NCBI RefSeq assembly: GCF_012027725.1
Contig: NZ_SJOU01000006.1
Coordinates: 62,001-126,000, forward strand
Source of the DNA: Olsenella sp. SW781
Lineage (GTDB): Bacteria; Actinomycetota; Coriobacteriia; Coriobacteriales; Atopobiaceae
Reading direction: 5' to 3'
DNA length: 64,000 bases
A program made the translations under genes and the position numbers. The notes below the pieces were generated by a model, which was given only the letters and a program-made list of their open reading frames with translations, made no database searches and was not told where the DNA came from. Positions 3,178 to 46,929 of this stretch are shown here, piece after piece (position 1 is the first letter of the stretch; the number at the start of each line of letters is the position of its first letter).

Positions 3178-3190
3178 TGGGTCTCCTCTC

Positions 3191-3264
3191 GTGAGACAAT
3201 GGGGACAGGTTCATTTGTCTCATTGAGGCACATGAGACAAATGAACCTGTCCCCATTGTCTCAC
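3191..3264. repeat. Perfect palindrome (33-bp arms, 8-nt loop) between nadC and nadB
   Basis: Arms at 3191-3223 and 3232-3264 are exact complements: GTGAGACAATGGGGACAGG and then TTCATTTGTCTCAT. It shares GGGGACAGGTTCATTTGTCTCAT with the 481-579 element (there GGGGACGGG). The nadB stop codon (3220-3222) lies inside it, so the last residues of NadB are encoded by one arm. It may terminate or attenuate transcription, or stabilise the upstream nadAB message, before nadC-niaR. Confidence 0.9.
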
Positions 3265-4530
3265 GGCCTCCGCAAGCTGCGCCGCGGTGTCCTCGGCAAA
3301 GCGGTCACGCATGATCTTGTCGGCCGCCCTCTGGGCAAAGACGAGCGACTCGAGCAGGCTGTTGGAGGCAAGGCGGTTCTTGCCGTGGACGCCGTTGCAG
3401 CAGGTCTCGCCGCAGGCGAAGAGGTGCGGCAGGGTGGTCTGGGAGTCCGAGTCCACATGGATGCCGCCCATGAAGTAGTGCTGGGCGGGCACCACGGGAA
3501 TCGGGCGCTCGCGGATATCGTAGCCCTCCTCGAGGCAGCGCTCCAGGATGTGCGTGAAGTGTCCCTCTATCACCTCGCGGGGCACCCGCTCGAAGGAGAG
3601 CCACACGTGCTGCGCGCCCGTTCTTCTCATCTCGGCAAAGATCGCCGCGGAGACCACGTCGCGCGGCTGCAGCTCGTCCGTGAAGCGCTCGCCGGCGTCG
3701 TTCAGCAGGATCGCCCCCTCCCCGCGCGCGGACTCGGAGATGAGAAACGCGCGGCCGGGTCGCTCGCTCCAGAGCGAGGTGGGATGGATCTGCACGTAGT
3801 CCATGTGCTCAAGGAGGACCCCGTGCTCGGCGGCAATGCGGCAGCCGTCCCCGGTGAGGCACGAGAAGTTCGTGGAGCGCGAGTAGAGCCCGCCCACGCC
3901 GCCCGTGGCAAAGACCGTAGCGTCCGCGCGGATCTCGATCCTCTCGCCGTCCGGCCCCGTGGCCACGACGCCGCGGCACACCCGCGTGCCGCTGCCCTCG
4001 GAGCTCTCGAGGATGTCCGTCATGCAGGTGTGCTCGAGAATGCGCGCATGGGGCAGCCTGCGCACGCAGGCCAGCAGGTGCGTGGTGATCTCCTCCCCCG
4101 TGACGTCCTCGTGGTAGACGATGCGCGGGCGGGAGTGCGCGCCCTCGCGGGTGTAGTCGAGCTCGCCGTCCGGCCTGCGGGCGAAGCGCACGCCGCGCTT
4201 GATGAGGTCGTCGATGATGGGGCGACTCGCGCGGATCATGAGGTCCACGCTCTCCAGGCGGTTCTCGTAGTGGCCCGCGCGCAGCGTGTCCTCGAAGAAG
4301 GACTCGTAGTCGCCCGGGTCGTGCAGGACGCAGATGCCGCCCTGGGCGAGCATGGAGTCGCAGTGGTCCACCTCCTCCTTGGAGAGCAGGACCACCGAGA
4401 GCGCCTCCGGGAGGTTGAGAGCGCAGTAGAGGCCGGCCACTCCGCAGCCGACGATGACCACGTCGCAGTCGATCACGCGCGCGGGGCGCGATTCGTCCGT
4501 CGCGATGACACCGTCCTTCTCGCCCGCCAT
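3220..4530 (-). CDS. nadB: L-aspartate oxidase, short form
   Basis: NadB oxidises L-aspartate to iminoaspartate with FAD. The N-terminal dinucleotide fold is VIVGCGVAGLYCALNL; further family blocks are LAQGGICV, HSRPRIVYHEDVTG, TVFATGGVGGLYSRSTN, QIHPTSLW, SESARGEGA, HYFMGGIHVD and CGETCCNGVHGKNRLASNSLLE. The start at 4530 follows GGGAGGTAGC that overlaps the nadA stop. At 436 residues it lacks most of the C-terminal helical domain of enzymes of about 530 residues, and its last residues (RQWGQVHLSHVPQ) come from the palindrome. Short NadB forms exist, so function is still likely, but the palindrome may have replaced an older 3' end. Confidence 0.93.
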   Translation of the reverse strand: MAGEKDGVIATDESRPARVIDCDVVIVGCGVAGLYCALNLPEALSVVLLSKEEVDHCDSMLAQGGICVLHDPGDYESFFEDTLRAGHYENRLESVDLMIRASRPIIDDLIKRGVRFARRPDGELDYTREGAHSRPRIVYHEDVTGEEITTHLLACVRRLPHARILEHTCMTDILESSEGSGTRVCRGVVATGPDGERIEIRADATVFATGGVGGLYSRSTNFSCLTGDGCRIAAEHGVLLEHMDYVQIHPTSLWSERPGRAFLISESARGEGAILLNDAGERFTDELQPRDVVSAAIFAEMRRTGAQHVWLSFERVPREVIEGHFTHILERCLEEGYDIRERPIPVVPAQHYFMGGIHVDSDSQTTLPHLFACGETCCNGVHGKNRLASNSLLESLVFAQRAADKIMRDRFAEDTAAQLAEAVRQWGQVHLSHVPQ

Positions 4531-23027: not shown

Positions 23028-23064
23028 ACTCGCCTAAAAGGGGACAGGCCCCTTTTAGGCGAGT
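23028..23064. repeat. Perfect hairpin (16-bp arms) with GGGGACAGGCCCC core
   Basis: ACTCGCCTAAAAGGGG (23028-23043), loop ACAGG, and the exact complement (23049-23064). It lies 18 bp beyond the hydrogenase stop and 25 bp upstream of the ndpA start, so it could terminate the hydrogenase message. GGGGACAGG places it with the other stop-codon palindromes. Confidence 0.85.
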
Positions 23065-28163: not shown

Positions 28164-29413
28164 AGTTCCGCGACCTCGCCTACGAGACCTCGTCCGCGCT
28201 TCTCGCCAACCGGGCGCGGAGCCTCCTCACCATCCTGGGCATCGTCATCGGCATCGCGGCCGTCATCGCCATGACGGCGCTCATCGACGGCGTGAAGGCC
28301 CAGCTCGTGGGCCAGCTCGGCCTCAACATGTCCCGAACGGTCAGCATCACCTGCTGGCCTCCCGGCAACCAGCCGCTCGACCGGGACGACATCGAGGAGA
28401 TGGGCCAGGCGCTCGCGGGCGACTACGAGTTCGTCACCGGCTACACCTACGCCGGGGTCCCGGCCTCGTCGAGCACCGCCGAGGTGGAGTACCTGAGCAT
28501 CACCGCGTGCGAGCCCGCCTACTTCCAGGGCATGGGGCTCTCCGCCACGCAGGGCAGGCTCTTCACCGAGGAGGAAGAAGAGGACGGCGCGATGGTCGTC
28601 GTGCTCGGCGGGTCCTCGGTGCAGAACCTCTTCGGCTCCCCCGACGCGGACTGCGTGGGAAAGACCGTGCGCATCGGCTCGTCGCAGTACACCGTCGTGG
28701 GCGCGATCAAGACCGACACGCCCTACCAGAGCGACATCGCCTACATGCCGGCGTCGACCGCCGTCACGCGCCTCATCGGGCAGGGAGGATACAACTCCTG
28801 GCAAATCCTCGGCTTCGCGCGCGAGGGCTCTGACATGTACGCCGTGGCGGCTAACACCGAGAGCTATCTCTACCAGCGCTACAACATCCCCTACCCCGAG
28901 GAGGGGCAGACCTCGTTCTCGAGTGACGAGGGCTACGTCTACGTCCAGACGGCGCAGGCGCTCATCGACCAGCTCGACGCCACGACGGCGACCTTCCGCA
29001 TGCTCGCGCTCGCGGTGGCGAGCATCTCGCTTCTGGTGGGCGGCATCGGCATCATGAACATGATGCTCACCAACGTGACCGAGCGCATCCGCGAGATCGG
29101 CCTGCGCAAGGCGCTCGGAGCCCGGCGCGGGGACATCACGGGGCAGTTCCTGCTGGAGAGCGTGACCATCTGCATCGTGGGCGGCGTCATCGGCGTGGGC
29201 GTCGGCTACGGCGGGGCATGGCTGCTCGCGAGCGTGGCGGGCTCGGCCCTGAGCTCGATGATGGGCGGGAGCGGCGAGCTCGTGCCCGTCATCTCCCCGG
29301 CGACCGTTGCCATGGCGACGGGCATCTGCGTGGGGATCGGCGTCGTCTTTGGCTGGTACCCGGCGCGCCGCGGCGCCAAGATGGACCCCGTCGAGGCCCT
29401 GCGCTACCAGTAG
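28160..29413 (+). CDS. MacB-type ABC transporter permease
   Basis: The 417-residue protein has one N-terminal helix (about 18-42, RSLLTILGIVIGIAAVIAMT), a MacB periplasmic core of about 220 residues, and three C-terminal helices with the FtsX-type signature GIGIMNMMLTNVTERIREIG, LRKALGARRGDI. It ends PARRGAKMDPVEALRYQ. With the preceding ATPase and adaptor it forms an export pump for a small molecule or peptide; the substrate is unknown. The TAG stop (29411-29413) directly abuts the 111-bp palindrome. Confidence 0.94.
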   Translation: MKFRDLAYETSSALLANRARSLLTILGIVIGIAAVIAMTALIDGVKAQLVGQLGLNMSRTVSITCWPPGNQPLDRDDIEEMGQALAGDYEFVTGYTYAGVPASSSTAEVEYLSITACEPAYFQGMGLSATQGRLFTEEEEEDGAMVVVLGGSSVQNLFGSPDADCVGKTVRIGSSQYTVVGAIKTDTPYQSDIAYMPASTAVTRLIGQGGYNSWQILGFAREGSDMYAVAANTESYLYQRYNIPYPEEGQTSFSSDEGYVYVQTAQALIDQLDATTATFRMLALAVASISLLVGGIGIMNMMLTNVTERIREIGLRKALGARRGDITGQFLLESVTICIVGGVIGVGVGYGGAWLLASVAGSALSSMMGGSGELVPVISPATVAMATGICVGIGVVFGWYPARRGAKMDPVEALRYQ

Positions 29414-29523
29414 CGCGCCACCGGCGTCAGGCTTATGCCACGGGCGTCAGGTTTATTTGGCACACGTCGCATGTGCCAAATAAACCTGACGCCCGTGGCA
29501 TAAGCCTGACGCCGGTGGCGCGC
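29413..29523. repeat. Palindrome with 52-bp perfect arms after the permease gene
   Basis: Arms 29413-29464 and 29472-29523 are exact complements around a 7-nt loop. Each arm contains two units, CACCGGCGTCAGGCTTATG and CCACGGGCGTCAGGTTTATT, so the hairpin is itself built from a repeated CGTCAGG(C/T)TTAT module; a third unit lies at 29525-29546. It begins on the last base of the permease stop and lies 38 bp from the hisS stop, so it can terminate both convergent messages. Confidence 0.92.
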
Positions 29524-32503: not shown

Positions 32504-32806
32504 GCCCCGGGCCTCCGGGTACGTACACCTCCCGCCCGGGTACGTACAATCCCAGGCCGGGTACGTACTAAGTTGTGAGTTTGATACACTTTCGCCACCA
32601 TGCCTACCTGCGGATTTGTCGCACAGGTCCATGCCTCAGCAGGGAAGTCGTGTACGTACCCGGGCGGGTGGTGTACGTACCCGGCGCGAGGCTGTACGCA
32701 CCCGGAGCCGGCGCGCCCCAGGGCGCGCCGACGCCCCGACGCAAGCGGCCGCCCCCACCCGGGCGGGCAGGGGCGGCCGACGGACGCCAGGTTCTTCTCG
32801 CCTGGC
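32504..32806. repeat. Mirrored array of GGGTACGTAC units (about 21-bp period)
   Basis: Three units reading GGGTACGTAC lie at about 32517, 32538 and 32559, and three complementary units (GTACGTACCC, last one GTACGCACCC) at about 32652, 32673 and 32693. Both triplets repeat at close to 21 bp, about two helical turns. The unique 85 bp between contains an AT-rich piece (TTGTGAGTTTGATACACT) but no convincing gene. TTCTCGCC occurs at about 32796, just beyond the ilvE stop. Confidence 0.75.
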
Positions 32807-34398: not shown

Positions 34399-35442
34399 AT
34401 GCGCATGTTCCGCAACGACTACTCCGAGGGCGCCGCGCCCGAGATCCTGGCCGCGCTCGCCGCCACCAACGACGAGCAGACCGTCGGCTACACCGAGGGC
34501 GACGCCCACTGCGAGCGCGCCCGCGAGCTCATTCGCGCCGCATGCGGGCGCGACGACGTCGACGTGGAGTTCTGCGTCGGCGGGACCTCGGCGAACGTCA
34601 TCGGCGTGACGGGGCTCCTGCGCGACTGGGAGGGCGCCGTCTGCACGAAGGACGCCCACATCAACGTCCACGAGACCGGCGCCGTTGCCGCGTGCGGCCG
34701 CACCGTGCTGCCCACCGACGACGCCGACGGCTTCCTCACGCCGGAGGCCGCCGAGCGCGTCTGGCGCTTTCAGACCTCCACGGGCCGCCACATGACGCGC
34801 CCCGGGTGCGTCTACATCTCCAACACCACGGAGCTCGGCGGCGTCTGGGACCTCGAGCGCTTCGACGCGATCTGCGACTGGGCGGACGAGAAGGGCCTGC
34901 CCGTCTTCCTCGACGGCGCGCGCCTGGGAAGCGGCCTTACCTCCCCCGCCGCGGGCGGCCTCACGCTCGAGCACATCGCCGCGCGCTGCGGGGCCTTCTA
35001 CATCGGCGGCACCAAGAACGGCATGCTCTTCGGCGAGGCCATGGTCATCGCCGACCCGCGTCTCAAGGAGGCCTTCCCGTTCCTGCAGAAGGAGCGCGGA
35101 GGCCTGCTCGCCAAGGGGCGCCTGCTCGGCGTGCAGTTCGAGGCCGCGTTCGAGCAGCCGGCGGACGGCGGCGAGCCGCTCTACTGGCGCCTGGCGAGAA
35201 ACGCCAACGCCTGCGCGTTCCGCCTGCGCGAGGGGCTCGTGCGCCGGGGGTTTGAGCCCTACGGCGAGGCGCCCTCCAACCAGCAGTTCTTCGTCATGAC
35301 GCCCGCCCAGCGCGACGCCTTCGAGGCCGCATGCGGCTGCGAGACCTTCTACGAGCTGCCGGACGGCAACGTGGTCGCGCGCTTCGTCTGCTCCTGGGCC
35401 ACGGCCGAGAAGGACGTGGACGAGCTCCTCGCAGCCGTGTAA
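34399..35442 (+). CDS. Threonine aldolase-like PLP enzyme
   Basis: A 347-residue fold-type I aldolase/beta-eliminating lyase. Typical features are the opening RNDYSEGAAPEILAAL, EFCVGGTSANVIGVTG, HINVHETGAV, YISNTTELGGVW, FLDGARLGSGL and the PLP lysine in YIGGTKNGMLFGEA. It likely cleaves L-threonine or L-allo-threonine to glycine and acetaldehyde; other 3-hydroxy amino acids are possible. A TACAAT lies at 34355-34360. The TAA stop (35440-35442) falls inside the 114-bp palindrome shared with the convergent HAD gene. Confidence 0.9.
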   Translation: MRMFRNDYSEGAAPEILAALAATNDEQTVGYTEGDAHCERARELIRAACGRDDVDVEFCVGGTSANVIGVTGLLRDWEGAVCTKDAHINVHETGAVAACGRTVLPTDDADGFLTPEAAERVWRFQTSTGRHMTRPGCVYISNTTELGGVWDLERFDAICDWADEKGLPVFLDGARLGSGLTSPAAGGLTLEHIAARCGAFYIGGTKNGMLFGEAMVIADPRLKEAFPFLQKERGGLLAKGRLLGVQFEAAFEQPADGGEPLYWRLARNANACAFRLREGLVRRGFEPYGEAPSNQQFFVMTPAQRDAFEAACGCETFYELPDGNVVARFVCSWATAEKDVDELLAAV

Positions 35443-35549
35443 AAGGGGACGGGTTATTTCTCTCAGAGAGCCTGGGACAGGCCCCGGGGAGCGCTCCCCG
35501 GGGCCTGTCCCAGGCTCTCTGAGAGAAATAACCCGTCCCCTTTTACACG
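35436..35549. repeat. Perfect 114-bp palindrome (57-bp arms, no loop) over two convergent stops
   Basis: The arms run 35436-35492 and 35493-35549 with no mismatch. From each end: CGTGTAAAAGGGGACGGGTT, ATTTCTCTCAGAGAGCC, TGGGACAGGCCCCGGGGAGC. The first TAA in each arm is the stop codon of the adjoining gene, so both convergent genes end in identical sequence. It contains both the GGGGACGGG and GGGACAGGCCCC cores seen singly in other palindromes. A bidirectional terminator is likely. Confidence 0.95.
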
Positions 35550-36172
35550 AACGAGTCGATGACCTCGTCGGCGGCGCTCACGTCCTGGACGATGTCGCAG
35601 CCGGTATAGGCGATGACGTAGCAGCCGGCCGCCTTCGCCGAGGCGATGCCCGTCGGCGAGTCCTCCACGGCCACGCACTTCTCGGCGTCCACGCCCAATA
35701 GCTCCATCGCGCGCAGGTACGGGTCGGGCGCCGGCTTGCGGCTCTCGACCATGTCCCCGCAGACGATGACGTCGAAGCGGCTCAGGACCCCCAGCCGCGC
35801 GAGCGCCGTGAGGATGCAGCGGGAGACCGTCATCGACACGAGCCCCACCCTGACGCCACGCGCCCGCAGGTCGTCCAGCAGTTCGGTCGCTCCCGGCTCC
35901 ATCACGAGCGGCGCCTCCGCGTAGGTGCGGTAGCAGTCGTCCCGCAGGCGCTCGTAGTCGTCGATGGATCCCGCCACGTGATGGCGCTCGAGGATGGGCG
36001 GCACCGTCACGCGGTCCTCCCCGCCCGTGAGCACCTCGAGCTCCTCGCGCGAGACCTCGGCGCCCATCTGACGCAGGATATCCTGCACCAGATAGAGGTT
36101 CTCGACCTCGGTGTTGCAGAGCGTCCCATCAAAGTCAAAGAGCACGGCGTCAATGCGCTCCGGGCGCGCCAT
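35543..36172 (-). CDS. HAD-superfamily phosphatase (beta-phosphoglucomutase-like)
   Basis: A 209-residue haloacid dehalogenase protein with DFDGTLCNTE (motif I, DxDGT), a helical cap, GLVSMTVSR (motif II, where Ser is followed by Met), the Lys of SRKPAPDPY (motif III) and AVEDSPTGIASAKAAG (motif IV). The group acts on small phosphate esters or interconverts sugar phosphates; the substrate is unknown. The ATG at 36172 follows AAGGAGG. The stop is inside the palindrome and convergent with the aldolase gene. Confidence 0.88.
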   Translation of the reverse strand: MARPERIDAVLFDFDGTLCNTEVENLYLVQDILRQMGAEVSREELEVLTGGEDRVTVPPILERHHVAGSIDDYERLRDDCYRTYAEAPLVMEPGATELLDDLRARGVRVGLVSMTVSRCILTALARLGVLSRFDVIVCGDMVESRKPAPDPYLRAMELLGVDAEKCVAVEDSPTGIASAKAAGCYVIAYTGCDIVQDVSAADEVIDSFV

Positions 36173-46862: not shown

Positions 46863-46929
46863 TGCCACTGGCGTCAGGTTCGTCTGGCACGCGCGCCGCG
46901 CGTGCCAGACGAACCTGACGCCAGTGGCA
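46863..46929. repeat. Perfect 67-bp palindrome (33-bp arms) with CTGACGCC...GTGGCA
   Basis: Arms TGCCACTGGCGTCAGGTTCG then TCTGGCACGCGCG pair exactly around 46896. It is 10 bp beyond the degV stop and 23 bp upstream of the dehydrogenase start. The TGCCACTGGCGTCAGGTT part matches the module in 29413-29523. Confidence 0.92.

Follow-up and report, generated by a model that had tools for sequence, protein, structure and literature searches.

The 64-kb stretch of DNA analysed here (the window) contains, at positions 34399–35442 of its forward strand, a gene for a PLP-dependent, threonine-aldolase-like protein (a weak NCBIfam match) that converges with a gene for a HAD-IA family hydrolase on the reverse strand (35543–36172). 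The 3′ ends of both genes run into a 114-bp palindrome (35436–35549) that is identical to its own reverse complement, its 57-bp arms meeting without mismatch or spacer, as the first-pass annotation had described. Both stop codons fall within the arms, a second point of that annotation confirmed here: the TAA of the aldolase-like gene (35440–35442, forward strand) lies in the element's outer edge, TGTAAAAGGGG, and that of the hydrolase gene (35543–35545, reverse strand) occupies the mirror position in the opposite edge. No longer perfect palindrome is present in the window, and in 64 kb of DNA with a GC content of 68.7% about 5e-27 spacer-free palindromes with arms of 57 bp or longer would be expected by chance. 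The remark that such a structure is odd, given the usual instability of long palindromes in bacteria, was well founded. Each arm harbours a repeat unit that is matched by family members, the left-hand unit (GGGGACGGGTTATTTCTCTCAGAGAGCCTGGGACAGG; 35445–35481, forward) being repeated as an inverted copy on the right (35504–35540, reverse), and the two are separated by an element-specific centre, CCCCGGGGAGCGCTCCCCGGGG (35482–35503), which is itself palindromic.

The repeat unit is composed of two conserved boxes, GGGGACGGGTTATTTCTCTCAGAG-n5-GGGACAGG, and the element consists of two such units in inverted orientation. It had been taken for a merger of two modules found separately in other palindromes, a reading that fails since GGGGACGGG and GGGACAGG are the two boxes of a single unit and are present together in nearly every family copy. 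In the 2.43-Mb genome, the 21-mer GACGGGTTATTTCTCTCAGAG, with up to three mismatches allowed, identifies 70 units (34 forward and 36 reverse), whilst the reversed pattern, used as a control, has no occurrence in the same sequence. These units are dispersed over ~38 mainly intergenic sites, most of them in inverted pairs that mostly span 80–115 bp, and nearly every copy has a different centre; counts for this genome are based on pattern searches together with individually examined stretches. The family also includes a nested palindrome with perfect arms of 103 bp (C34:104470–104675; positions 1441–1646 of L043), larger than that in the window. Within the genus, 9 of 31 genomes contain the 17-mer core of the unit; none of 109 other genomes of the taxonomic family does. 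Comparison of the element with Rfam returned sub-threshold matches alone, mostly microRNA-like, as with any long hairpin.

Units of this type also lie in both flanks of a RAYT/TIRYT-like HUH transposase gene (C12:181118–181963). Its product matches PF01797 (Y1_Tnp) with 48 bits, against a cut-off of 23, and the translation, read by eye, contains HVH and YIHDNP, so that the HUH motif and the catalytic tyrosine are both in place; its score against the NCBIfam RAYT equivalog (NF047646) is 73.3 bits, below the cut-off of 80. In other genomes, homologues of this transposase with 59–79% identity are flanked by this type of unit, and those with 53–54% identity by other repeat families. The genome encodes five RAYT-like PF01797 genes, each flanked by its own palindrome family, and five further palindromes of the window fall into the families of other RAYT genes. 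Two of these (475–585 and 3190–3265) are of the TGAGACAA...GGGGACAGG family and match the sequences that flank the C12:143064 RAYT gene; this family has 20 + 20 units in the genome and, here too, mirrored variants. Another two (29413–29523 and 46863–46929) belong to the GGCGTCAGGTTTATTTGGCA family, which matches the sequences flanking the C34:69300 RAYT gene and, with 73 + 68 units, has the highest count of the families measured. The fifth is a single GCCTAAAAGGGGACAGGCCCCTTTTAGGC hairpin (23028–23064) of the type found next to the C1:212524 RAYT gene. Elsewhere in the genome, a CRISPR-like array (L009; C3:61958–65314) with the repeat GGGATCATCCCCGCATACGCGGGGAGCAC adjoins an IS200-type transposase gene.

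One hairpin formed from two inverted units, many dispersed copies and a RAYT gene with matching flanks are the characteristics of a REPIN. In common with the REPINs and RAYT described by Bertels and Rainey (2011, PMC3116915), the family shows an inverted unit pair, intergenic dispersal and a tie to a RAYT gene. However, its arms are 40–57 bp long and mostly perfect, whereas the Pseudomonas REPINs of that study have a less conserved inter-unit spacer, of which only part is paired. The GTAG tag of classical REPs is absent from 35436–35549, where the edge reads GTAA. In this the element resembles the TIR/TIRYT systems (Di Nocera et al. 2013, PMC3733652), which are likewise long, self-complementary inverted repeats devoid of GTAG that are found in the flanks of RAYT-like genes and as dimers. 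The TIR family motif reported there, GGGGWSAS, is fitted by GGGGACAGG variants and by the flanks at L145, and the palindrome in the window, reading GGGGACGG, is one base off. The word Actinobacteria is absent from the text of that paper, and nothing relevant is apparent from the titles and abstracts of the literature on RAYT in Coriobacteria. The family is new, the kind of element to which it belongs (a REPIN/TIR-type mobile hairpin) is already known, and the perfection of its arms is unusual among elements of this known kind. Convergent REPs have been reported at no more than 20 bp from either 3′ end, with REP termini often giving the stop codon (PMC3733652), and the present element similarly sits at convergent 3′ ends and supplies the stops; the source differs, published REPs providing TAG from the GTAG tag and this family mostly TAA from the edge TGTAAAAGGGG. 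Across the genome, a copy is faced by 45 gene 3′ ends, 38 of them at most 13 nt and 21 at most 3 nt from its GGGG edge, although single distances are approximate as the gene calls derive from a simple codon model.

The palindrome is very probably a non-autonomous mobile hairpin (a REPIN/TIR dimer) of the family of the C12:181118–181963 transposase. The dispersal of the family, the units in the transposase flanks, the junctions that are empty or occupied by other families and the stops in the element's edge can be read directly from the sequences compared. The element is apparently mobilized by this transposase, presence or absence between species being the only sign of movement. The enzyme would process the hairpin in single-stranded DNA and join it into a new site; at gene 3′ ends the element would survive because it provides in-frame stops at its edges and leaves all else intact.

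Comparison of the aldolase/HAD junction in relatives, a check that the first-pass annotation had proposed, is in keeping with this. In four relatives (L045, L069, L090 and L096) the stops of the two genes share the sequence CTAG, a 4-nt overlap, and the element is absent. A same-family hairpin with a different centre is present in L048, the sole relative with a same-family copy at this position. The remaining junctions contain a single GCCTAAAAGGGG hairpin (L050), TGTAAATTGGGGACAGT-type hairpins (L051, L055 and L056), TGACAGGG-type hairpins (L053 and L060) or, in L066, L071 and others, repeats of a different kind from that in the window. Judged from these comparisons, the junction is a hotspot that took up hairpin elements of many families. 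At two other junctions, which have nested copies in this genome, a relative possesses a different repeat family within flanks that are 94–97% identical. Within the window, GGGTACGTAC repeats, some forward and some reverse, are clustered between two converging genes (32513–32707), and a similar GGGTACGTACACT cluster is located at the aldolase/HAD junction of L068.

Three alternative scenarios have to be considered. An inverted duplication generated during assembly or library preparation, which the first-pass annotation had feared, would account for perfect symmetry without a spacer and is in line with the frequent location of contig ends at such units in this and related assemblies. However, independent copies of the family match both arms, other assemblies also contain members of the family, including a palindrome on a 2.63-Mb contig of a relative, the L048 hairpin has another centre at the same junction, and the flanking genes are distinct and intact; the palindrome is real, and such an origin is exceedingly improbable. 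A second scenario proposes that the element is first and foremost a host-selected bidirectional terminator or mRNA 3′-end stabilizer, in which selection on the RNA stem keeps compensatory changes and mobility is incidental or past. This would suit its position between gene 3′ ends, the location of 14 of the 15 copies at tandem sites nearer the upstream stop, and the conserved stem and diverged loop of an element shared by five species (see below). The element has an RNA fold of −124 kcal/mol (z −19), and both strands yield transcripts with a predicted 57-bp hairpin ending at UUUU, with which the last stem pairs are formed. Nevertheless, such stems are much longer and more perfect than termination requires, there are only four U, and a terminator scan (rule of 5 T in 8) found no site; the stem is followed by TTTT only. 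The excess of G-U type among arm mismatches expected under RNA-level selection was not seen, one junction holds different families in different species, and the units are associated with transposase genes. This scenario is possible but doubtful. A role in expression is also compatible with the mobile hairpin favoured here, as the 57-bp hairpin and UUUU predicted in both transcripts probably end or protect both mRNAs.

The third alternative is that the arms are identical merely through recent insertion of whole copies of a symmetric parent, with no ongoing correction. Of the inverted pairs, 20 of 26 in this genome and 14 of 19 in relatives have 36-nt units with no difference between the arms, whereas comparison of different elements of this genome gives a mean of 4.9 differences in 36 positions. 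Recent insertion is favoured by the recurrence of some mirrored variants in several elements (subfamilies), but several other arm variants are private to one element and are still mirrored. It also sits poorly with the element at C22:2439, common to five species with flanks that are 86–94% identical: its loops have diverged so strongly that good alignment is left for some loop pairs only, yet six between-species stem differences are mirrored in both arms, against about three that are one-sided. Recent insertion alone is consequently rather unlikely. Compensatory changes on the two sides of a REPIN hairpin were noted earlier (PMC3116915), and in RNA genes mirrored changes that keep the stem perfect have been described by ancestral reconstruction (Monttinen and Loytynoja 2022, PMC8794818). 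The mirrored stem changes are alike in the two studies, and the extension of template switching to mobile hairpin elements is our inference. The mirrored arm changes in this family most likely reflect DNA-level correction, with selection on the stem as a rival to it. On the preferred, mobile-element reading, identity of the arms would be maintained as replication corrects one arm from the other within the hairpin (quasipalindrome template switching), perhaps with the help of such selection. The evidence for arm correction comes from the pair counts, the private mirrored variants and C22:2439, the junction at 35436–35549 having a same-family copy in just one relative. The five-species site shows no loop inversion, by which one kind of template switching can be recognized, and arm mismatches showed no significant dependence on centre length (p = 0.09).

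Long palindromes are cut by a nuclease of which SbcD is a component. No SbcD was found in this genome or in the other 30 of the genus (31 in all), and the protein is present in 42 of 109 other genomes of the taxonomic family; an SbcC-like match in the genome was rejected as SbcC, being an SMC protein. In samples drawn from 29 RAYT-bearing genomes, perfect palindromes whose arms reach 30 bp or more number 24 in 1320 kb from those lacking SbcD (in four of six genera) and 4 in 1080 kb from those with SbcD (in one of seven genera), a comparison that is confounded by ancestry and is suggestive only, as most of the palindromes come from one genus. The absence of SbcCD may plausibly permit long perfect palindromes to persist, a link subject to the same confounding. 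The proposal of Di Nocera et al. (2013, PMC3733652) is that SbcCD eliminates perfect REP dimers and so shapes these elements; a genus with no SbcD found, and with perfect dimers as the rule, bears on it. What appeared to be an odd palindrome is a usable natural experiment on SbcCD and REP dimers, in which orthologous elements in several species allow arm correction to be measured and one gene junction is shown to have accepted hairpins of many families.

Some elements of this family enclose other copies at their centre or are themselves enclosed. A GGCGTCAGG hairpin lies inside the copy at C34:98054, a TGACAAAGG hairpin inside one at L241 (genome G092), and at C34:104470 several repeat layers are nested in one another; from these three cases, loop tips may be favoured targets for further insertion. 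A broader model, in which without SbcCD the REPINs have become long perfect palindromes, their arms corrected at the DNA level with the hairpin as template and their single-stranded loop tips preferred as REPIN targets, leading to nesting, is tentative and, as a whole, somewhat improbable. Contig ends of this assembly (C11, C33 and C37 of G000) and several of G105 and G108 lie within ~200 bases of copies of the unit, indicating that assemblies tend to break at these copies.
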